From positions 1-35,470 of the forward strand of contig JAJZLV010000118.1 of the NCBI GenBank assembly GCA_021803215.1: a DNA stretch of 35,470 bases. Direction: 5' to 3'. The translations under genes were made by a program, and so were the position numbers. Shown one piece after another: positions 2,475 through 34,455 of the stretch. This DNA is from Actinomycetes bacterium. GTDB taxonomy: Bacteria; Actinomycetota; Acidimicrobiia; Acidimicrobiales; Bog-793. The first letter of the stretch is position 1, and each line of letters opens with the position of its first letter. Below the pieces are notes generated by a model. The model searched no databases. It saw only the letters and a program-made list of their open reading frames with translations, and was not told where the DNA came from.

Positions 2475-5400
2475 ATGGGCTCTGTGGCGAAGATAAGGCG
2501 CGAGCGGATCGGCCGGCTGCTGCGCATGGTGATCTGGCCGGCCACCCATCCGCTCTCTCACCCGCTCGAGCTGTCCATCCACCGGCTGCCAGGTGAACCG
2601 ATCCCACCCGAGCGGGCGCCCGCTTTGTCCTTCGAGCCCTTCTCGGTCGGGCAAGCTTGGGGCGGTGCCTGGTCGACCGCCTGGTTCAGAGCGGCCGGCA
2701 CCGTCCCGGACGAGTTCGCCGGTCATCGGGTCGTAGCCAGGATCGATCTCGGCTTTCACGGCCAGCCCGGCTTCGGGGGCGAGGCTCTCGTCTTCTCTGA
2801 CGGGCGCCCCCTGCAGGGGGTCAACCCTGCCCACAACTCGGTCCGGCTCACCGACAGCGCCGCCGGCGGCGAGCGGGTGGACCTCCTCGTCGAGGCGGCC
2901 GCCAACCCGGTCGAGCGAGGCGCAGCCTTGGAGTGGCCCCTCCTGCTGCCCGACTACCGCGGCCGAGACCTCTACACCCTGGCCCGCTTCGACATCGCGG
3001 CGGTCGACACCGCCATGATGGAGGTCCTCTACGACTGGACGATCCTCACCGAGCTGGTCGACGAGCTCGGGCTCGAGGACCGCCGTTCCGCCGAGATCCT
3101 CCAGGCTCTCGACCAGGTGGCCCGCGAGGCAGATCTCGCCGACCTCCAAAACAGCGTCGTCGAGCGCCGAGAGAGCTGGGCCGAGCTCCTCGAGCGCCCG
3201 ACGAGAGCCGGGTCGCACGAGACCTACGCAGTCGGCCACGCCCACATCGACTCGGCTTGGCTCTGGCCGATCCGGGAGACAAAGCGCAAGTGCGCCCGCA
3301 CGTTCTCGACGGCTGTCGGCCTCATGAAAGGCGACCCGGACTTCGTCTTCGTCTGCTCGCAGGCACAGCAGCACGCCTGGATGAAAGAGGACTACCCGAC
3401 GCTGTTCGCCGAGATGAGACGGTTCGCCGGCGAGGGTCAGCTCGAGCCGGTCGGCAGCATGTGGGTCGAGCCCGACACCAACCTTCCCTCGGGCGAGTCG
3501 CTCGTCCGCCAGCTCGTCTTCGGGAAGCGGTTCTTCCTCGAGCACTACGGGCTCGAGACGAGCGATTGCTGGCTGCCCGACGCCTTCGGCTACTCGGGCA
3601 ACCTGCCCCAGATCCTGCGATCGGCCGGCGTGGACCGCTTTTTCACCCAGAAGCTCAGCTGGAACGAGATCGACGCCTTTCCCCACCACACCTTCTGGTG
3701 GGAGGGAATCGACGGTTCGAGGGTGCTCGCCCACTGTCCGCCGACGGACACCTACAACGCCGCCATGACAGTGAGTGAGCTGATGGAGGGCGAGCGGCAC
3801 TTCGCCCAGCACGGGGTGAGCGGCAGGTCCCTTTACGTCTACGGCTTCGGAGACGGAGGCGGCGGCCCGACCGAGGAGATGCTGGAGCGGGCCCGGCGAC
3901 TCGCCGACCTCGACCCGCTGCCGAGGCTGCGGCTGTCGCGCGCCAAGAGCTTCTTCGACGACCTCGAGAAGGACCTGGCCCTGGCAGACGAGAGGGAGCA
4001 AGCGGCTTTCGCCGGATCGAGCCGGACGGCCCATGCACCTGGCCCGGGCCGGCTCCCTGTATGGTTCGGCGAGCTGTACCTCGAGCGCCACCGGGGCGTG
4101 CAGACGACCCAGGCCCAGTCGAAGCTCGGCAATCGGCGCTCCGAGCGCCTCCTGCGAGAGGCCGAGCTCTCCGTCCTGCTCTTCCTCGACCAGAAGGAGG
4201 CGGCCTCTGCCACGCGGCGGATCGAGCAGGCCTGGAAGACAGTCCTTCTCCACCAGTTCCACGACATCTTGCCGGGCTCGGGCATCCACTGGGTCCACCA
4301 GGACTCCCGGCGGGCCTACGCCGAGGTCGAGTCAGAGCTCACGGAGGTGATCGGCCAGGCGCTTCAAAGCCTGGCGGGCCGCCTCGCCGAACGTCGGAGC
4401 GGGCCGGCCCTGCTGGCCTTCAACGCCGCTACGGCCCAGCGCAGCGAGGTGGTCGAGGTGGACCGCGGCTCGCTCGGCTGGACCGAGAGCGAGGAGGCGA
4501 GCCTGCAGCCGATCGGCGAGGGCCGAGCCCTTGTCCGCCTCGGGGTCGAGGGAAGCGGCTGGACCACCGTCGCGGCCGACGGGGCGGCGGCGGCGCGACC
4601 GGCCGCGGTCGATCCCGGCGGCCGCTCGATCGAAAACGGGCTCGTCTGCCTCTCGCTCGACGAGAACGGCAACCTGAGCTCTCTTTGCGACCTCGTTCTC
4701 GGCCGCGAGCTCCTGGCCGAAGGATCGACCGGCAACCTCTTCCAGCTCCACCACGACCTGCCGAACAACTTCGACGCCTGGGATGTCGACCAGGGTGCCT
4801 TCGAGCGCGCCTACGACCAGCTCGAGGCGGAGTCGATCGAGGTGACCGAGAACGGCCCTCTCCGGGCGGCATTGCGAGTGAGGCGCAGGATAGGGCGGGC
4901 GAGCCGGCTCACCCAGGAGATCCGGCTGGCGGCCGGGAGCAAGCGGGTGGACTTCGTCACGACGGTCGACTGGCAAGAGTCTCACCGGATGCTCAAGGTC
5001 TCCTTCCCGCTCTCGGTTCGCTCCCCCCGGGCGACCTTCGAGGTGCAGTTCGGCCACGTGGAGCGCCCGACCCATGCCAACACCTCTTGGGACGAGGCCC
5101 GCTTCGAGGTCCCGGCCCAGCGCTTCGCGGCCCTCGCGGAGCCCGGCTTCGGCGTCGGCCTGTTGAACGACTGCAAGCACGGCTACGACGTGCGAGCGAA
5201 CGTCCTGCGGCTCTCCCTCCTTCGCGCGCCCGGCTGGCCCGACCCGAAGGCCGACCGCGGGCGCCACCAGTTCACCTACGCGCTCTACCCCTATGCCGGC
5301 GAGGCCGGCTTCTCCGAGCTGCTGCACGAGGCCGAGCGCCTGAACGTCCCGATCCGCCTTGTTCCCCTGCCGCCTTCGACCGAGGCTCGCGGCGCGGGAT

Positions 5401-10832: not shown

Positions 10833-11800
<968 letters not shown>

Positions 11801-11821: not shown

Positions 11822-11948
11822 CACCCGGGGCCGCCGAGCCTGCGGGCCGGGCAGGACCCCCCGGCCGTTGAGAAGTGGGGCGCCTCGGGGTAAACCTATG
11901 GGTGCGCGGAGAGTGGCCGGGCACGCACCCTGGGAGCAGGATCGGGCG

Positions 11949-13238
11949 ATGGAGCAGAGCGCTACCAGCATCGAGCAGGCGATCCGGAACGCCACCGACC
12001 CGGCCTCGCTCCTGCGGCGCATCGTGGAGGAGGCCACCAGGCTCATTCCCGCGGCGGAAGGTGCCGCTCTGCTGCTGCTCGACGGCGACGAGTTCACGTG
12101 GGTCTGCGCCGGCGGGCTGCTCTCCATCCCGGCGGGCATGCGGATGCCGGTCGCCGGCAGCCTGGCCGGCCTTGCGATAGAGCAGGGCCGCACCGTCTTC
12201 TCAGAAGACGCCCGGCACGACCGGCGAGCCAACACCCGGGCGGTCGAGCTGAGCGGGACCGCCGCCACGGCGAGCGTGCCGCTCTACTACGAGAGCCGGC
12301 CAATCGGCTGCCTCACCATCGGGTCGCCCTATCCGGGCGCCTTCAGCCACGAGCGCGTCGAGGTGCTCAACACGCTCGCCGAGTTCATCTCGACCGCGAT
12401 CGCGACCGTCATCAAGATGAACCGGATAACGGCTCAGCTCCTCGAGATTGACGACGGGCCGCTGCTCAACGGCCTCCGGGCCGAGCCGGCCTCGGTCGCC
12501 CACTTCGTCGCCAACGTCCTGCACCCGGGCACCGGCTCGGACATAGTCCGCCGCCAGCAGATCGAGCGGGTGCTCGAAGAGGGCATCACGACCTGCTTCC
12601 AGCCGATAGTGGAGCTGTCGAGCCGGCACCTGCTCGGCTTCGAGGCCCTCGCCCGCTTCCCGAGCGGTCAAACGGTCGACTGGTTCGCCGACGCCCATCG
12701 CCTCGGCCTCGGCACCGCCCTCGAGGAAGCCACCTGCCGGCGGGCCCTCTCCTGCATCGGCCTTTTGCCGCCCGAGTGCTACCTCGCCGTCAACCTGAGC
12801 CCTATCGCCCTCTCGCGAAAGGGCGTGCCGGAGCTCTTCGGACAGGTCGACCCCAACAGGATCGTCCTGGAGCTGACCGAGCACCTGCGGGTCGAGGACT
12901 ATCCGAGCCTGCGCCGGCGAGTCTCGGAGCTGCGCCGGCAGGGCTTTCGCCTGGCGATCGACGACACCGGGGCCGGCTTTGCCAGCCTCTCGCACATCAT
13001 CAGGCTCGAGCCCGACATCATCAAGCTCGACCTCGACCTCACCAGGGGCATCGACCTCGACCCGGTGCGGCGCTCCCTTGCCACCGCGCTCATGACCTTC
13101 GCGGCAGACATAGATGCCCTCGTCATCGCCGAGGGCATCGAGACCGAGGGGGAGCTCGCCACCCTTCTCGAGCTCGGCATCGGCGTCGGCCAGGGTTACC
13201 TCCTCGGCCGACCGGAGCCAGCCGCTCAGCTCGCCTGA
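11949..13238 (+). CDS. GAF-EAL cyclic-di-GMP phosphodiesterase
   Basis: 429 residues from ATG 11949, chosen over an in-frame ATG at 11898 because of GGGAGCAGGA upstream and the helical start SATSIEQAIRNATDPASLLR. GAF domain about residues 15-160. EAL domain about 205-425, with all residues needed for two-metal c-di-GMP hydrolysis visible: E232 in FEALARF, N282 in VNLSPIAL, E308 in LELTEHLRV, D338/D339 in AIDDTGAGFASL, K359 in IIKLDLDL, E395 in IAEGIETEGE and Q415 in GQGYLLGRP. Expected to linearise c-di-GMP in the cytoplasm under control of a ligand or signal at the GAF domain. No membrane segments. With the cyclase at 18902 and BldD at 32478 it probably belongs to one signalling network. Confidence 0.93.
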   Translation: MEQSATSIEQAIRNATDPASLLRRIVEEATRLIPAAEGAALLLLDGDEFTWVCAGGLLSIPAGMRMPVAGSLAGLAIEQGRTVFSEDARHDRRANTRAVELSGTAATASVPLYYESRPIGCLTIGSPYPGAFSHERVEVLNTLAEFISTAIATVIKMNRITAQLLEIDDGPLLNGLRAEPASVAHFVANVLHPGTGSDIVRRQQIERVLEEGITTCFQPIVELSSRHLLGFEALARFPSGQTVDWFADAHRLGLGTALEEATCRRALSCIGLLPPECYLAVNLSPIALSRKGVPELFGQVDPNRIVLELTEHLRVEDYPSLRRRVSELRRQGFRLAIDDTGAGFASLSHIIRLEPDIIKLDLDLTRGIDLDPVRRSLATALMTFAADIDALVIAEGIETEGELATLLELGIGVGQGYLLGRPEPAAQLA

Positions 13239-18901: not shown

Positions 18902-20494
18902 TCAGCGGGCCGCCACACAGACGCAGTTGCGCCCCTTGTTCTTGGCCCGGTACATCGCCGCGTCGGCCTTGGCGAGCAAGCTGGCGGCATCGAGGCCGTC
19001 CCGGCCGACGGCCGCCACCCCGATCGAGACCCTGATCGGGATGTCGCCACAGAGCTCGGAGAGGTCGACCGCCTCCACCCTGGCCCGGAGGGACTCGGCC
19101 AGGTTGGCTCCCGTCTCGCGATCGGTGGCCGGCAGGAGGGCGACGAACTCCTCCCCGCCGTAGCGGGCCACGAGGTCGCCCCGCCTCAGCCGCTCCCGGA
19201 GCACCTCGGCCACCCGCTTGAGCAGCCGGTCGCCCGTTGCATGCCCGAAGGTGTCGTTCACCGTCTTGAAGTGGTCGATGTCGACGAAAAGGAGGGCGGC
19301 CGGCTCCTGGAAGTGCTCGTAGCGGGTGATCGAGACCCCGATCACCTCTTCGAGGGCCCGGCGGTTGGCGAGCCCCGTCAGCGGATCCGTCTGCGCCTCG
19401 GCCTGCACCGCCTCGAAGCGGCGGGCCTGGATGACGGCGGCGGCACACTGGTCGGCGAAGTACTCAAGGGTCTCGATGTGGGCCCGATCCGGCAGCAACC
19501 CGTTCGAGGACTCGTCGAGGGAGATGAGGCCGAGCAGCTCGCCGCTCTTCTCGACGAGCGGGACGATCAGCATGTCCTCGGGGTGCCACTGGCCCTCCTT
19601 CCAGTCCCGTTCGACCTTCGGCACGTTCGTCTTGCGGTGCAGATCGCTCGGCATCTCGAAGCGGCTGTGGTCGAACAGGTAGGAGCGGCTCACCTGCATG
19701 GCGGGATGCATGAGGGGGGCGAAATCGTCGAGGCTGAGCACGGTCGCCCGCAGCTCGGCGTCCTCTTCGGGGCTGAGGCCGACAGTCGCCCGGCACTCGA
19801 GGCGACCCTCCTCGAGGAGGTTCACGGCCGCCCGGTCGAATCCGCCGGCCGAGGTCATGGCGACAGCCATCTCGTGCAGCACCTCGTCGAGCAGGATGCC
19901 GCCTCGCACCTCGGCGCTCGCCATGAAGAGAGCTTCGAGCTGGCGTCGCTGGGCCTCGACCACGGCGAGGGCGGAGCGCTCGAGCGCCCTCGTGCGGACG
20001 AACTCGAGGCCGACCACGGTCAGCTCGGCGAGCGCCTCGAGCAGGAGGGCCTGGTCGTAGTTGGGCAGCTCGCCCGAGCTCGGGACGTCGGGGTTCAAGA
20101 GCCCGAGGACGGCGCCGTCGCTGCCGATGAGCGGGACGAAGAGGAAGGACTCGGGCCGCCAGCTCCCGAGCGGCCCGGCCACGCCGGTCTCGACCATGGC
20201 GCCGGCCACCTCCTCGTCTTGGAGGACGGGATGGCCACCTTCCACCACGTAGAGACGGCCGTTCTGGCTGGCGGCCGCCAAAAGCCGCTCGAAGCCCTCG
20301 GTCGTGAGCGTGCGGCTCCGCACCCGCGCCTCCACCTCGGCAGGCAGCCCCTCCCCGGCTGCGAAGCGGAAGCCGCCGTCGTCGCTCCGCAAGGCGACGG
20401 CGCAGGTGCCGAAGCCCACCTGCTCTGTGGCAGTGCGACAGACGAGGTGGAGCAACTCGAGCTCGTCCTCGACGCTGCTCAACCGGCGCGCCAA
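18902..20494 (-). CDS. GAF-GAF-GGDEF diguanylate cyclase
   Basis: 530 residues from TTG 20494. The frame stays open for about 100 bases upstream and is protein-like there (TASHLRGVLQLARRLSSVED), but offers no ATG or GTG, so the start is uncertain. Two GAF domains, about residues 10-165 and 190-350, precede the catalytic domain. That domain begins with TDPLTGLANRRALEEVI, has LLFVDIDHFKTVNDTFGHA, and the active site R-Y-GGEEF at 446-450. R437-R-G-D440 five residues before it is an RxxD I-site, so product inhibition is expected. It makes c-di-GMP from two GTP; the GAF domains sense an unknown ligand. No membrane segments. Confidence 0.93.
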   Translation of the reverse strand: MARRLSSVEDELELLHLVCRTATEQVGFGTCAVALRSDDGGFRFAAGEGLPAEVEARVRSRTLTTEGFERLLAAASQNGRLYVVEGGHPVLQDEEVAGAMVETGVAGPLGSWRPESFLFVPLIGSDGAVLGLLNPDVPSSGELPNYDQALLLEALAELTVVGLEFVRTRALERSALAVVEAQRRQLEALFMASAEVRGGILLDEVLHEMAVAMTSAGGFDRAAVNLLEEGRLECRATVGLSPEEDAELRATVLSLDDFAPLMHPAMQVSRSYLFDHSRFEMPSDLHRKTNVPKVERDWKEGQWHPEDMLIVPLVEKSGELLGLISLDESSNGLLPDRAHIETLEYFADQCAAAVIQARRFEAVQAEAQTDPLTGLANRRALEEVIGVSITRYEHFQEPAALLFVDIDHFKTVNDTFGHATGDRLLKRVAEVLRERLRRGDLVARYGGEEFVALLPATDRETGANLAESLRARVEAVDLSELCGDIPIRVSIGVAAVGRDGLDAASLLAKADAAMYRAKNKGRNCVCVAAR

Positions 20495-23716: not shown

Positions 23717-24810
23717 CCCGCCGCCAGCTGCCCGCCGGCCTCGGCCAGCTGGGCGAAGAGGAGGGTGCCCTGGCCGGTCGGGCGGCTCGACAGGACGACC
23801 ACGTCGACGGCGCTCGAGCCGACCAGGTGCTCGGCTCCGTTCACCACGACCATCTCGCCCTCCGGCAGGTAGCCGACCGCCTGGTTCTCCTGGCGGCCGG
23901 CCCGGACGAGGTCGATCCTGAGGTGCTCACCCGGGACGTGGTCGGGGCTGAGGTCGCCCGCCAGCGCCCGCAACTCGACCACCGGGAGGCCGGTCCGGCC
24001 GGCCGCTCTCGCCACCTCGGCCGAGCAGGTGACGAGGCGGGCTCCGAGCTCGGAGGCGAGCTGCAGGACCTTCTCCTCTCTGAGGGCCAGACCGGCGAGC
24101 TCGCCGGGCACCAGGCTCACCACCACCCCGGCCTCGCCCAGGGCCTGCAGGGCCTCGAGCCCCCGTTGGGCCCGCCGGCTGGCGACCGGGTCCGGCCCGT
24201 CCGCCAGGCTCCGCAGCTCGTCCGCCACCACCTGGGGCAAGAGGAGCTCCCGGCCGAGCAGGCCCGCCCGGCCGAGCACGAGCAGGCAGCGGTCCATCAC
24301 CGCCGAGCTGTCGACCATGACGGCGCCCTCCGGCGCCTGCTGGAAGGGAGCCAGCTGGCGGGTGATGCGGGCCGCCTCGGCCAGGCGGCGGCCGTTCGTC
24401 CGCCCGAGGCGGAGCCCGAGCGCCCCGGCCGTCCAGGCGACGGCCGCCGCCGCCGGATAGTCGAAGGTCCCCCGCGCGAAGATGAAGATGGGGAGGCAGG
24501 CGAGGGCGCCGAGGATGAACCCGAGGCCGCCGAGGAGCGCGCCCGAGAGCACCTCGATGGCAGGCACCTCGAGGAGCGAGCTGTCGGCTCGGCGCACCTC
24601 CCGAGCCACGAACCGCCCGGCCACGCCGCCCGCCACGTAGCCGACGAGGACCCCGACGACCGCCCCGAGCACCCGTCCGCCCCCGCCGTCGATGCCGGCG
24701 CCGAGGCCGAGGCCGGTTGTCGCCCCGACGAGGACGACCGTGAGCCGGAGGACCTCGACGAAGACGGCTGCGCCCCGCTTGCTTTGTGCAGGAGACGGCG
24801 CCAAGCTCAC
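23713..24810 (-). CDS. PIN/TRAM domain membrane protein, YacL-like
   Basis: 365 residues from GTG 24810 (VSLAPSPAQSKRGAAVFVEV); the start is uncertain. Four membrane segments (about residues 15-165: VLRLTVVLVGATTGLGLGAG, VLGAVVGVLVGYVAGGVAG, LSGALLGGLGFILGALACLP, AAAVAWTAGALGLRLG) are followed by a PIN nuclease-like domain starting MVDSSAVMDRC, with a second acidic cluster VVADELRSLADG and a late LVTCSAEVARAAG. A TRAM domain follows at the C-terminus (RAGRQENQAVGYLPEGEMV, then SSAVDVVVLSSRPTGQGTLL). This is the YacL architecture, conserved in Gram-positives, with a proposed but unproven RNA role. The third PIN acid is less clear. Confidence 0.88.
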
Positions 24811-24900
24811 CCGAGCAGCATCGGCAGTTGCGGGCCGGAGCTTGAGAAGACCAGCCCCTGCCTGCCACCGGGCGCGGGGCAGGACTACGCTCCCGCAGCC

Positions 24901-26172
24901 ATGCGGCAAGGGCGGAGAAGATGCCGGCTACCGGCCCTCCTGGCGCTCCTCGGTGCCTGCAGCCTTCTCGCAGGGGCCTGCGGGATCCTCGGCCGGCCGG
25001 CCGCCAGCTCCTCTCCGCCGCCCCCGACGAGCGTCTACAACAAGTTCGTCGGCATAGAGCAGCAGGCCTACAAGACGGCCCTTTCCGACCTGAAGGGCTT
25101 GGCCCTGCCCAAGAGGGCCGGCGCCCCGGCTCCCTCGCTGCCGCCGGACGCCTTCGGCAAGGGACTCCGCTCCCACCTCGTCCTCGGCTTCCTCCCGAGC
25201 TGGGAGATCTACCGGGCCTCCTCCATCGACTACCGGGCGCTCAGCGAGGTGAGCTACTTCGCCCTCCAGGTCGAGCCGGGGGGCAAGATCCTCCGCTCGG
25301 GCCAGGGATGGAACGTGCTGCGGCGAGGTGGCGTCGGCCAAGTCGTGGCCGACGCCCACCTGGCGGGCGACCGCGCGCTCCTCACGCTCTACACCGGCAC
25401 CGCCTCGACCATCTCCCAGATGGCAAAGGCCCCGCTCGCCGCCGGGACCGAGCTCGCCGCCGAGGTGGCGCCGCTGCTGGCGACCTACCACTTCGACGGG
25501 GTCGACCTCGACTTCGAGAGCCAGCAGGGCTCGGCCCGGGCCGGCTTCACCGCCTTCGTGGCCGCCTTCGCCAAGGCGCTCCACCTGCGGGGTCCGCACT
25601 ACCAGATAGTGCTCAACACCTTCCCCCAGGCGGCGGTGGACCCGGACGGCCTCTACGACGTGAAGGCGCTCGCCCGATATGTCAACGACCTCTTCGTCAT
25701 GGCCTACGACATGGGCTCCACCTCCTCGCCCGGCCCGACGGCCCCTCTCGTCGGGCTCAACCTGACAGATGCCTCCGTCCTCGCCTCCTACGAGGCGGTG
25801 GTGCCGGCGAGAAAGATCATCCTCGGAATCCCCTTTTACGGCTACGACTTCACCGCCAGCGGGAAGAGCCCGCCTGCGGTCACCCTCGGCGGCCCGGTGG
25901 CGGTCACCTACGCCTCGATAGCCGCCACCGGGCGGAGCGCTCTTTGGGACCCGTCCTCGCAGACTCCCTACATCTCGTTCAAACGGTCCGGCCAGTGGCA
26001 CCAGACCTGGTTCGACGACCCGGTCTCGGTCGCGCTCAAGGTGGCGCTCGCCGCCGCCTTCCACACCGCCGGCGTCGGCGTCTGGGAGCTCGGCATGGCC
26101 GCCGGCCGCCCGGCCATGGTGCGGGCGCTCGACGGCGGCTCCCCCCCGCTCCGGCTGCCTGCCGCCGGCTAG
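24901..26172 (+). CDS. GH18-like secreted lipoprotein
   Basis: 423 residues from ATG 24901. Arg-rich start and a hydrophobic core (LPALLALLGACSLLAGAC) with a lipobox ending at C20 or C27 indicate a lipoprotein. A Pro-rich linker follows. The glycoside hydrolase 18 domain spans about residues 90-415: HLVLGFLPSWEIYRASSIDY, LLTLYTGTASTIS, then D199-G-V-D202-L-D204-F-E206, the DxxDxDxE active-site motif with the catalytic Glu present. Later come NDLFVMAYDMGSTSSPGPT and IILGIPFYGYDF. It could cleave N-acetylglucosamine-containing glycans at the outer face of the membrane. It is transcribed away from the PIN protein and ends on a CTAG shared with the GNAT gene. Confidence 0.88.
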   Translation: MRQGRRRCRLPALLALLGACSLLAGACGILGRPAASSSPPPPTSVYNKFVGIEQQAYKTALSDLKGLALPKRAGAPAPSLPPDAFGKGLRSHLVLGFLPSWEIYRASSIDYRALSEVSYFALQVEPGGKILRSGQGWNVLRRGGVGQVVADAHLAGDRALLTLYTGTASTISQMAKAPLAAGTELAAEVAPLLATYHFDGVDLDFESQQGSARAGFTAFVAAFAKALHLRGPHYQIVLNTFPQAAVDPDGLYDVKALARYVNDLFVMAYDMGSTSSPGPTAPLVGLNLTDASVLASYEAVVPARKIILGIPFYGYDFTASGKSPPAVTLGGPVAVTYASIAATGRSALWDPSSQTPYISFKRSGQWHQTWFDDPVSVALKVALAAAFHTAGVGVWELGMAAGRPAMVRALDGGSPPLRLPAAG

Positions 26173-31541: not shown

Positions 31542-32302
31542 GGGAGGCGGCCGGCGGCCCGGGAGGAGGGGAGCGGGCAGCCGCCGCCCTCTGCTATCTC
31601 TCCGACCTCGAGGGCCTGCAGCTCTCGGAGGAGGACACCCACCACTTGGAGCGGGTGCTGCGCCTGCGAGACGGCGAGGCCGTGGCCGTTTCCGACGGGG
31701 CCGGCAGCTACCGCCCCTGCAGGGCGCGCAGAGGAGCGGGCCGCCGGCTCTGTCTCGAGCCTGCCGGGCCGGTCGGCTTCCAGCCCCGCTCCGAGCCGGC
31801 GGTGACGGTCGCCTTCTCGCTGCTGAAAGGCGAGCGGACCGAGTGGGCGGTCGAGAAGCTGACCGAGGCGGGTGTCGACGAGATCCTGCTGCTCGTCTGC
31901 GAGCGCACGGTCGTCCGCCCCTCGGAGGATCGCTCCGAGCGACGCTGGCGCCGCCTGGAGAAGGTCGCCCGGCAGGCGGCCATGCAGTCTCGCCGCCTCT
32001 ACCTACCCCGCCTCGCCCGGCCGGTCGGGGTAGAAGAGGCGATCTCTCGCGCGGCCGGCCGGGGTTTCATCGCCGAGCCCGGGGGCGGCCCGCCCCGCCT
32101 CGACCGACCCTTCGCCCTCGTCGGCCCGGAAGGAGGCTGGTCTTCGGCCGAGCTCGCCCGCGCCGGGCGGCACGGCCTCGAGCCCCTCTCGCTCGGAGCC
32201 GGGGTTCTCCGGGCCGAGACGGCCGCCGTTGCGGCCGGCCTCCTGCTGACGGCGCTCCGCTCTGGCCTGGTGGCGGCATCCACCGATGACCGCTCTCGGT
32301 GA
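31538..32302 (+). CDS. rsmE: 16S rRNA (uracil1498-N3)-methyltransferase RsmE
   Basis: About 254 residues if read from the CTG at 31538, which overlaps the dnaJ stop (CTGA). No ATG, GTG or TTG lies at a fitting place. The protein part starts at about residue 17 with CYLSDLEGLQLSEEDTHHLE and RVLRLRDGEAVAVSDGAG, the N-terminal PUA-like domain. The SPOUT domain contains SLLKGERTEWAVEKLTEAG, QAAMQSRRLYLPRL, the knot motif ALVGPEGGWSSAELARAG and SLGAGVLRAETAAVAAGL. All family blocks are present. It methylates U1498 of 16S rRNA. The true start codon is open. Confidence 0.93.
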   Translation: MREAAGGPGGGERAAAALCYLSDLEGLQLSEEDTHHLERVLRLRDGEAVAVSDGAGSYRPCRARRGAGRRLCLEPAGPVGFQPRSEPAVTVAFSLLKGERTEWAVEKLTEAGVDEILLLVCERTVVRPSEDRSERRWRRLEKVARQAAMQSRRLYLPRLARPVGVEEAISRAAGRGFIAEPGGGPPRLDRPFALVGPEGGWSSAELARAGRHGLEPLSLGAGVLRAETAAVAAGLLLTALRSGLVAASTDDRSR

Positions 32303-32334
32303 GATACTCTGCCGCCCGCTGTGAGGGCTGGCCG

Positions 32335-32352
32335 CTATTAGTGGTGTAATAG
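32335..32352. promoter_or_regulatory. Inverted repeat upstream of bldD
   Basis: CTATTA (32335-32340), six spacer bases GTGGTG and TAATAG (32347-32352) form a perfect interrupted palindrome in the 175-bp gap between rsmE and bldD. The right part, GTGTAAT, fits one half of the published BldD site consensus, but the other half does not fit. BldD regulates its own gene in Streptomyces, so an operator is plausible. Confidence 0.35.
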
Positions 32353-32477
32353 ACGGCAAGAGCGGTAAAGCACAGGCTGTGAGCGTCGACCCGTCGAAGG
32401 CCCGGAGACCGGTGCCAGGAGCCAGAGCTCATCTGGCGCCGCGTCCCGCCGACGGCCCAGGTCAACGTGGGGGTCGC

Positions 32478-33050
32478 ATGGAGAAGGCATCGATGGCACG
32501 CCGGGAGAACGAGGACGATGCAGCAGCCCGCTACGCCCAGGCTGTCGGCACCAGGCTGCGGGCGGTGCGCCGGCAAAAGCGCCTCTCTCTCCAGGCGGTC
32601 GAGAAGGCCTCCGGCGAGGAGTTCAAGGCCTCCGTGCTCGGCGCCTACGAGCGGGGTGAGCGGACCATCTCGGTGCCGCGCCTCCAGCGGCTCGCCCAGA
32701 TCTACGACGTCCCCGTCGACCAGCTGCTGCCGAGCGACACCAGCGACCCGCTCAGCCGGGCCTCTCAGATCGGGGCCGTCCGGGCCAAGAGCGGTGCCCG
32801 CGCGGGCCGCAAGATCACCGTCGACCTCGCCCGCGTCAACGAGGCCCGCGGGCCCGAGCGCGACTTCCTCCGACACTTCCTCGCCTCGGTCCAGGTGCAG
32901 CGCCAGGACTTCAACGGCAAGGTGCTCACCATCCGGACAGACGACCTCTCGGTGATGGCCTCGATGTTCGGCATGAACGTCGACACCCTCATCTCCCGTT
33001 TCGAGCAGCTCGGCATCCTGCGGGCCTCTCCGAACGGCAGCTCCTCCTGA
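32478..33050 (+). CDS. bldD: BldD-like c-di-GMP-responsive transcription regulator
   Basis: 190 residues from ATG 32478, preceded by GTGGGGG; an ATG at 32493 is also possible. The N-terminal XRE-type HTH reads RLRAVRRQKRLSLQAVEKAS, then LGAYERGERTISVPRLQRLA and QIYDVPVDQLLP. A variable linker (about residues 85-112) leads to the C-terminal domain ITVDLARVNEA...FLASVQVQ. That domain carries R142-Q-D144, eight residues (FNGKVLTI) and R153-T-D-D156, exactly the RxD-X8-RxxD motif that binds tetrameric c-di-GMP in Streptomyces BldD. Length (167 in Streptomyces) is slightly greater because of the N-terminus and linker. It probably represses developmental or physiological genes when c-di-GMP is high. 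Confidence 0.9.
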   Translation: MEKASMARRENEDDAAARYAQAVGTRLRAVRRQKRLSLQAVEKASGEEFKASVLGAYERGERTISVPRLQRLAQIYDVPVDQLLPSDTSDPLSRASQIGAVRAKSGARAGRKITVDLARVNEARGPERDFLRHFLASVQVQRQDFNGKVLTIRTDDLSVMASMFGMNVDTLISRFEQLGILRASPNGSSS

Positions 33051-34252
33051 GCGGTCTCCTCCCTCTCGCCCCCGGGACGGGCGCCTACGTCCACATCCCT
33101 TTCTGCACGAGCCGCTGCGACTACTGCGCCTTCGCGACCTGGACGGACCGCCACGCTCTGCGGGCCCCCTACACCGACGGCTGCATCGCCCACCTCGACG
33201 CCCTCCAGCGGCGAGAGGGTGCTCTGGCCCGCAGCCTCGAGCCCTGGCCGGCGGCCGAGAAGGTCGCCACCGTCTACCTCGGCGGCGGAACCCCCTCCCA
33301 GCTCGAGGTGGCCGACCTCGCCCGCCTGCTCGCTGCCATCTCCCGCTCGGAGGAGGCCGAGGTGACGGTCGAGGCCAACCCCGAGGACGTCACGGCCGGC
33401 TGGGCCCGGGCCGCCGCGCAGGCCGGGGCCACCCGGGTCTCCCTCGGGGTCCAGTCGCTCGATCCGGTCGTGCTTGCCGGCCTCGGGCGGAGCCACGACC
33501 CGGCCGCCGTCGGGCTGGCGGCCGAGGCGATCGGAGCAGCCGGCATCTCCTCCTACAGCATCGACCTCATCTACGGCGGGGCGGGCGAGAGCGACGCCAG
33601 CTTCCTCTCGGGCCTCGAGAAGGTCCTCGCCCTGGAGCCGGCCCCGAGCCATGTGAGCGCCTACGCCCTCACCGTCGAGCCGGGCACGCCGCTTTGGAGG
33701 GACCCCGCCCGTCACCCCGACGACGACACCCAGGCCCGGCGCTACGAGCTGGCGGACGAGGCGCTCGGGGCCGCCGGCCTGTCGTGGTACGAGATATCGA
33801 ACTGGGCGAGACCAGGCCACGAGGCCCGCCACAACATCGGCTACTGGGACCAGGGCGACTACCTCGCCATCGGGGCGGCCGCCCATGGTCATCGGGCCGG
33901 ACACAGGTGGTGGAACCTCCGCACACCCGAGCGCTACCTCCGGGCCGTCCGAGAAGGCCGGCGCCCGGTCGCCGCCGGAGAGAGGCTCGAGCCGAGCACC
34001 AGGCGGCGCGAGGCCCTCGAGCTCGCCCTCCGGACCCGCTGGGGCGTGCCGGAATGGGCCCTCGCGAAGGACGACGAAGCCCTCGACGGCCTGCTCGAGC
34101 CGGCCGAGGAGGAGGGTCGGATCCGGCTCAGCCTGCGAGGCCGGCTGCTCGCCAACGAGGTGTCGCACCGCCTTCGGCCCTGTATGGGATCAGCTGAAAG
34201 GCAAGAAGGTAGCGCTATGCTCGAGATATGCCCGAGCCAATTCGGTGGATGA
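33047..34252 (+). CDS. hemW: Radical SAM haem chaperone HemW-like protein
   Basis: About 401 residues if started at CTG 33047, which overlaps the bldD stop (CTGA). No ATG, GTG or TTG occurs before the Fe-S motif, and the first GTG (33308) would remove it. TGAYVHIPFCTSRCDYCAFAT holds the radical SAM CxxxCxxC. Then come VYLGGGTPSQL, VEANPEDVT, RVSLGVQSLDPVVLAGLGR, YSIDLIYGG, HVSAYALTVEPGTPL and YEISNWARPGHEARHNIGYW, all HemW blocks. The C-terminal domain ends LLANEVSHRL; the last 25 or so residues overlap the next gene and are probably not conserved. HemW delivers haem to respiratory proteins; it lacks true coproporphyrinogen oxidase activity. Confidence 0.92.
   Translation: MSGLLPLAPGTGAYVHIPFCTSRCDYCAFATWTDRHALRAPYTDGCIAHLDALQRREGALARSLEPWPAAEKVATVYLGGGTPSQLEVADLARLLAAISRSEEAEVTVEANPEDVTAGWARAAAQAGATRVSLGVQSLDPVVLAGLGRSHDPAAVGLAAEAIGAAGISSYSIDLIYGGAGESDASFLSGLEKVLALEPAPSHVSAYALTVEPGTPLWRDPARHPDDDTQARRYELADEALGAAGLSWYEISNWARPGHEARHNIGYWDQGDYLAIGAAAHGHRAGHRWWNLRTPERYLRAVREGRRPVAAGERLEPSTRRREALELALRTRWGVPEWALAKDDEALDGLLEPAEEEGRIRLSLRGRLLANEVSHRLRPCMGSAERQEGSAMLEICPSQFGG
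34194..34221 (+). promoter_or_regulatory. Possible promoter for a leaderless HTH mRNA
   Basis: CTGAAA (34194-34199) and TATGCT (34216-34221) are 16 bases apart inside the hemW 3' end. The start site expected six to seven bases after TATGCT coincides with the ATG at 34228, and there is no good Shine-Dalgarno sequence next to that ATG. Leaderless transcripts are frequent in actinobacteria. Confidence 0.4.
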
Positions 34253-34455
34253 GCACCGGCGAGGTGGCCCGGTACCTGGGAGTGAACACGCGCACGCTCT
34301 ACCGGATGATCGACGAGGGAGAGCTCCCGGCCTACAAGTTCGGCCGGGTGATCCGCCTGCAGGAGGGGGACGTCCTCGCCTTCGTCGAGCGGGCCCGCAT
34401 CGCGCCCGGGAGCCTCGAGCACCTCTATCCCGTGCCGAGCCGGACCGAGGCCTGA
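34228..34455 (+). CDS. Small excisionase-type helix-turn-helix protein
   Basis: 75 residues from ATG 34228, overlapping the hemW 3' end by 25 bases. WMSTGEVARYLGVNTRTLYR is the HTH_17/MerR-like helix-turn-helix; MIDEGELPAYKFGRVIRLQE is the wing with the GRVIR strand; LAFVERARIAPGSLEHLYPV closes it. It is a one-domain DNA-binding protein of the AlpA/BldC-like type. Despite the excisionase name such proteins in actinobacterial core blocks are chromosomal regulators; nothing mobile is nearby. Its stop and the next start share bases (TGATG). Confidence 0.85.
   Translation: MPEPIRWMSTGEVARYLGVNTRTLYRMIDEGELPAYKFGRVIRLQEGDVLAFVERARIAPGSLEHLYPVPSRTEA

Follow-up and report, generated by a model that had tools for sequence, protein, structure and literature searches.

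The closest described relatives of the protein analysed here are the BldD regulators of Streptomyces coelicolor and S. venezuelae (PDB IDs: 2ewt, 4ob4, 4oaz, and 5khd), with which it shares its domain layout and fold, the RxD-x8-RxxD signature for c-di-GMP, N118, and the core of the HTH domain. In Streptomyces, BldD acts as a repressor that c-di-GMP activates. Streptomyces BldD recognises the box TNAC-N5-GTNA, for which the core of the crystallised 21-mer is TCACGCTGCGTGA (PMC4151990). That bldD is ancient and has an orthologue in Acidimicrobium was recognised by Chater and Chandra (2014; PMC4255298), who suggested a stationary-phase role for it in simpler actinomycetes. Their article predates the c-di-GMP work and covers neither ligand nor box nor regulon for Acidimicrobiia, which are the points added here. 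Our literature search found no paper linking BldD of this class to c-di-GMP. In unicellular actinobacteria, c-di-GMP controls a developmental-type regulator by way of the (RsiG)2-(c-di-GMP)2-WhiG switch of Rubrobacter (PMC8325347), although both the protein and the binding mode differ from those of BldD. A WhiG/FliA-type sigma gene that exceeds the TIGR02479 cut-off is also found in the genome studied here (G000 contig 40, 12483-13259, locus L275), in the order xerD-like, whiG, rpsB, and tsf, while the proteins from the 42% of this genome that was read contain no RsiG-like motif.

The window, by which we mean the whole 35,470-nucleotide stretch that was analysed, corresponds to contig 42 in a metagenome-assembled genome (MAG) of 2.64 Mb that is 95.5% complete and belongs to the class Acidimicrobiia. 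Among the relatives bearing names are Acidimicrobiaceae and Acidimicrobiales MAGs, Ferrithrix, Acidithrix, Aciditerrimonas, and Aquihabitans. Unlike Streptomyces, the members of this class are not known to sporulate. As for development markers, a search for SsgA gave no matches in the genome, though the control genomes gave none either. We consider it likely that the bldD-family gene of the window encodes a c-di-GMP-responsive autorepressor, and unlikely that its physiological role is in sporulation.

The bldD-family protein and its ligand site

In the initial annotation, an open reading frame was placed at 32478-33050, and its translation was reproduced here, with the pattern R.D.{8}R..D occurring once, at R142 (RQDFNGKVLTIRTDD). 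The true start, however, is probably the ATG at 32493 instead of the one at 32478. Here, a Shine-Dalgarno-like GGAGAAGG is found at 32480-32487, five bases 5' of the ATG at 32493, and this same start was picked by the gene caller. The gene (32493-33050, + strand) would then encode a protein of 185 residues with an XRE HTH domain followed by a BldD-like C-terminal domain, and the signature residues would be numbered R137, D139, R148, and D151.

Membership of the BldD family is agreed upon by profile, fold, and ligand residues. Both HTH_3/HTH_31 and PF21179 (BldD-like_C; 62.9 bits with a cut-off of 27) exceed their thresholds, which gives the two-domain layout of BldD. Moreover, TransRegBldD is the top NCBIfam match (139.3 bits, ahead by about 110 bits) and also matches all of the aligned orthologs (38/38). 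The score does fall short of the 250-bit equivalog cut-off of this profile, which weakens the case for outright identity with the Streptomyces bldD gene, but not its place in the family or a BldD-like way of working. A sequence search of the PDB gave Streptomyces BldD, with each of its two domains, as the strong relatives, the window protein being identical at 35 of 69 positions in the DNA-binding domain and 25 of 74 in the C-terminal domain. An AlphaFold model made from the 38 orthologs (pLDDT of 83, with a low-confidence linker) found its best PDB matches in the BldD DNA-binding domain (2ewt; 1.2 Å for 69 columns) and in the c-di-GMP-bound C-terminal domain (4oaz; 1.7 Å for 74 columns). No matches to the protein were found in phages, whereas plasmid records gave two, one being a Nonomuraea record of 11.85 Mb, effectively a chromosome.

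The c-di-GMP signature, R142-x-D144-x8-R153-x-x-D156 when numbered from 32478, is encoded at 32901-32945 (+ strand). It had been described as an exact match to that of Streptomyces BldD, and this is so for the four residues themselves, but the remaining ligand contacts are partly changed. Thus, while N118 and a K84-like lysine are kept, S123 is replaced by threonine and I110 by valine, which are conservative changes, and R130, a phosphate contact, is replaced by serine. Judged from the sequence, this serine may weaken the phosphate contact in the window protein. The signature itself is not a chance match, since it lies within the PF21179 domain, at the ligand positions of the BldD structures, and in the most conserved columns of the domain. 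Among 107 non-redundant orthologs (copies differing by more than 10%), the four ligand residues, N118, and the glycine that follows it are invariant, with the equivalents of R114, D116, N118, R125, and D128 being 100% conserved against a mean top-residue frequency of 0.58 for the domain. The HTH core (KASVLGAYERGER) is also nearly invariant. All 193 copies found by the search pattern have the R, D, R, and D, but as this pattern partly demands motif 1, seven loci that it had missed were inspected manually: in five, none of the four residues is changed, L034 was seen for motif 1 only, and L085 is altered. The last of these, from a small-genome lineage (G009), is a divergent BldD ortholog with asparagine in place of the first aspartate of the signature.

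Distribution and phylogeny of the rsmE-linked protein

Of the 247 genomes of the class, 146 have a PF21179 match over the cut-off, as do 109 of 348 genomes of the phylum. In the window, the gene upstream of bldD is rsmE (16S rRNA methyltransferase; 31544-32302, + strand), a setting that differs from that of Streptomyces bldD and is conserved across the class, with rsmE directly upstream in 160 of the 184 loci that had enough flank. Downstream, and in part of the class, there is a hemW-like radical-SAM gene (33053-34252, start not fixed, + strand). Beyond it, at 34249-34455 (+ strand), the window encodes a small HTH_17/MerR-type protein, excisionase/BldC-like, whose gene lies near the 3' side of bldD in many relatives, with hemW in between in some and without hemW in others. 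With regard to the ligand, the claim that the c-di-GMP signature is intact in a lineage without known sporulation holds across the class. Moreover, among 60 relatives compared, BldD is absent from all three that lack a GGDEF match; put differently, such a match is missing in 3 of 7 relatives without BldD and in 0 of 53 with it (p 0.001, with kinship and incompleteness ignored).

In the tree, the rsmE-linked proteins of Acidimicrobiia form a separate supported clan next to the BldD proteins of Streptomyces and Nonomuraea. An origin of BldD before Streptomyces, as already proposed by Chater and Chandra (2014; PMC4255298), is upheld by this analysis. A second, divergent BldD-like protein with an intact signature is encoded beside lysC and asd in one genome of the class (L091, G006; 3953-4477), and it joins the actinomycete BldD side of the tree (support of 98/97), though with a very long branch and an unsure placement.

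One reading of this tree, which we regard as rather unlikely but the most serious of the alternatives, is that of an ancient paralogy between BldD and the rsmE-linked protein, with a ligand and box in common, but with a role and regulon that had diverged before the classes split, in which case an ancestral BldD circuit would be the wrong frame. Consistent with this are the separate clan, the position of L091 on the actinomycete side, the 2-5 BldD-like_C proteins found in several genomes of the phylum, the score below the equivalog cut-off, and a gene neighbourhood unlike that of actinomycete bldD, with no rsmE, hemW, or dnaJ found within 12 kb of Nonomuraea bldD, the one actinomycete region compared. 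Set against it are the long branch and unsure place of L091, the box and ligand site being the same as those of BldD, and the single copy carried by most genomes of the class, which is the rsmE-linked one. Our own, tentative proposal, which we rate as slightly less likely than not, is that an ancestral autorepression loop of c-di-GMP and BldD persists in Acidimicrobiia without a change in its ligand or box specificity, and would serve a few envelope or surface genes and not sporulation, and that Streptomyces later put development under this ready-made switch. With the same ligand site and box occurring class-wide in bacteria not known to sporulate, a pre-sporulation role for BldD becomes directly testable, for which Acidithrix, Ferrithrix, and Aciditerrimonas offer cultivable relatives and the RsiG-WhiG pair of Rubrobacter a precedent.

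The box upstream of bldD and other predicted targets

A BldD-type box before bldD across the class is new here. For the motif search, 61 non-redundant rsmE-bldD intergenic promoters were used, in which the top de novo dyad was CCAC-N5-GTGG. CAC-N5-GTG occurs in 25 of these promoters, compared with 2.2 in shuffles (at most 6 in any of 100) and 2.0 in segments drawn at random from these loci (at most 8 in any of 300 draws), with a spacer of five only and a comparable excess at no other spacer, and with a central A/T in 37 of 42 sites. Expectation maximisation (EM), which, unlike the dyad search, was started from the AC-N5-GT frame, gave the motif RYCAC[GT]CWG[AC]GTGRY. A first dyad match upstream of bldD, GTCTC-N4-CGCA, was set aside as the coding end of rsmE and not regulatory. 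The class motif agrees with the Streptomyces BldD box, and a matrix built from Acidimicrobiia promoters alone, with the genus of the window left out, gives the Streptomyces crystal 21-mer a score of 14.0 and detects a site scoring 14.1 in front of Nonomuraea bldD, at a distance of 163 bases. On these grounds, both DNA specificity and autoregulation are predicted to be conserved outside the sporulating actinomycetes.

Within the window, a candidate BldD box, AGCACAGGCTGTGAG, is found upstream of bldD at 32369-32383. This is a perfect CAC-N5-GTG palindrome and identical in the close relative G247, and other loci of the family have a box in the equivalent position, but whereas the Streptomyces box (TCAC-N5-GTGA) has a central A/T, the centre here is G, and the matrix score is -1.9 bits. 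A second candidate, the degenerate GCCGCTATTAGTGGT at 32331-32345, scores 10.0 bits (promoter rank 13 of 564) and overlaps a conserved promoter-like element; by eye, the upstream sequences show a putative -10 element, TGTAAT (32345-32350, + strand), in the family-conserved GTGGTGTAAT.

Mechanistically, high c-di-GMP would lead to the ligand being sandwiched between two C-terminal domains by way of the RxD-x8-RxxD signature, and the domains so joined would pair two HTH domains and hold them on YCAC-N5-GTGR boxes. The best supported target would be the bldD promoter itself, with repression as the presumed sign of regulation and hence negative autoregulation, and there would be few other candidate promoters, among them that of a membrane-anchored protein and perhaps that of one remote GGDEF gene.

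These other targets come from a scan of 1.1 Mb (42% of the genome), covering 564 promoters. Ranked first is the promoter of a gene (contig 77, 13376-14335) whose membrane-anchored product matches no Pfam family; here, candidate boxes ATCACGCACAGTGGT and ATCACGCTAGGCGGC lie on either side of TATAAT with a spacing of 21 bp. In G247, the ortholog, which is 49% identical, is preceded by candidate boxes ACCACGGAGAGTGGT and ATCACGTAGAGAGAA, spaced in the same way. For a GGDEF gene on contig 48, there is a candidate box 20 bases upstream of the gene start (9.4 bits, rank 16), which may be due to chance. Over the sampled 42%, the box showed no genome-wide excess in the 428 intergenic regions that bear promoters, so that either the regulon is small or the box is too weak to count; from sequence, a small regulon is probable, which is another difference from Streptomyces BldD.

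An alternative that we find improbable is an XRE regulator that has kept the BldD fold but, within this genus, no longer responds to c-di-GMP, with the R130-to-serine change and the altered box as drift. Both of these changes, the latter being the G at the box centre, do occur in the genus, and the L085 ortholog shows that motif 1 can be lost. Nevertheless, the window protein retains the four specificity residues together with N118 and the K84-like lysine, and in both species of the genus there is a target with paired boxes.

Several further matrix matches stand apart from these. Between dnaA and dnaN (G000 contig 75, about 11222-11236, locus L310), there is a near-perfect palindrome, ATCACGGAACGTGAT, which at 16.7 bits is the second best candidate in the sampled genome. 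For mraZ, considered as a BldD target, the strong matches in many relatives proved to be conserved AGTGG direct repeats beside a TACNTA element; at loci L321-L347, these repeats are of the MraZ-site type and mimic half a BldD box. A site in the window at 2013-2027 (14.2 bits) was rejected as well, being probably a chance occurrence, as it has no homologous G247 DNA beyond the GH38 gene and no clear gene behind it.

Neighbouring cyclase and phosphodiesterase genes

The window also encodes two enzymes of c-di-GMP turnover, both of them intact as first annotated. On the - strand, at 18902-20494, there is a GAF-GAF-GGEEF diguanylate cyclase, in which RRGD-x5-GGEEF at residue 437 makes up the I-site and A-site. 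On the + strand, at 11949-13238 (open reading frame of 11868-13238, likely start at 11949), there is a GAF-EAL phosphodiesterase with one GAF domain and with the EAL, NLS, ELTE, DDTGAG, IKLD, AEGIE, and QGY motifs all present. The two genes are 12-20 kb from bldD. When the DNA upstream of 11949 and 20494 was inspected for BldD sites, as had been proposed, no convincing box was seen at either, the matrix giving 6.7 bits (rank 36) for the EAL promoter and 3.3 bits (rank 160 of 564) for the cyclase promoter, nor does the cyclase promoter of G247 have a BldD box. Moreover, the cyclase is found beside pntA only in the close relatives G247 and G270, the position of the EAL gene is kept only in G247, and the genome has nine GGDEF and six EAL matches in about ten genes.

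Overall, the ancestral, non-developmental BldD/c-di-GMP circuit that had been put forward is partly supported: the family membership, the ancestry, and the signature stand, and a class-wide box is added here, but there is no support for a circuit with the nearby cyclase and EAL gene, which look like ordinary neighbours and not BldD partners. As c-di-GMP is diffusible, BldD could still be supplied by these enzymes, but their linkage is no evidence of it. Least probable by far is a local module in which BldD acts together with the two enzymes and controls both of their genes, for, even with all three intact and within 21 kb, and with BldD known to repress several cyclase genes in Streptomyces (PMC8325347), no convincing box marks either gene or the G247 cyclase, the neighbourhood is conserved only among the closest relatives, housekeeping genes on both strands intervene, and further GGDEF and EAL genes occur elsewhere in the genome.

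Elsewhere in the window, positions 1-2400 contain no recognisable genes, have no homologous counterpart in the compared part of the sister-species contig, and are possibly a rearranged or mobile region. Between pntB and lepA, there is a glycosyl hydrolase family 18 gene (23827-26172, + strand, locus L137) that is 62% identical to its counterpart in the sister species, where pntB and lepA are 92-97% identical.
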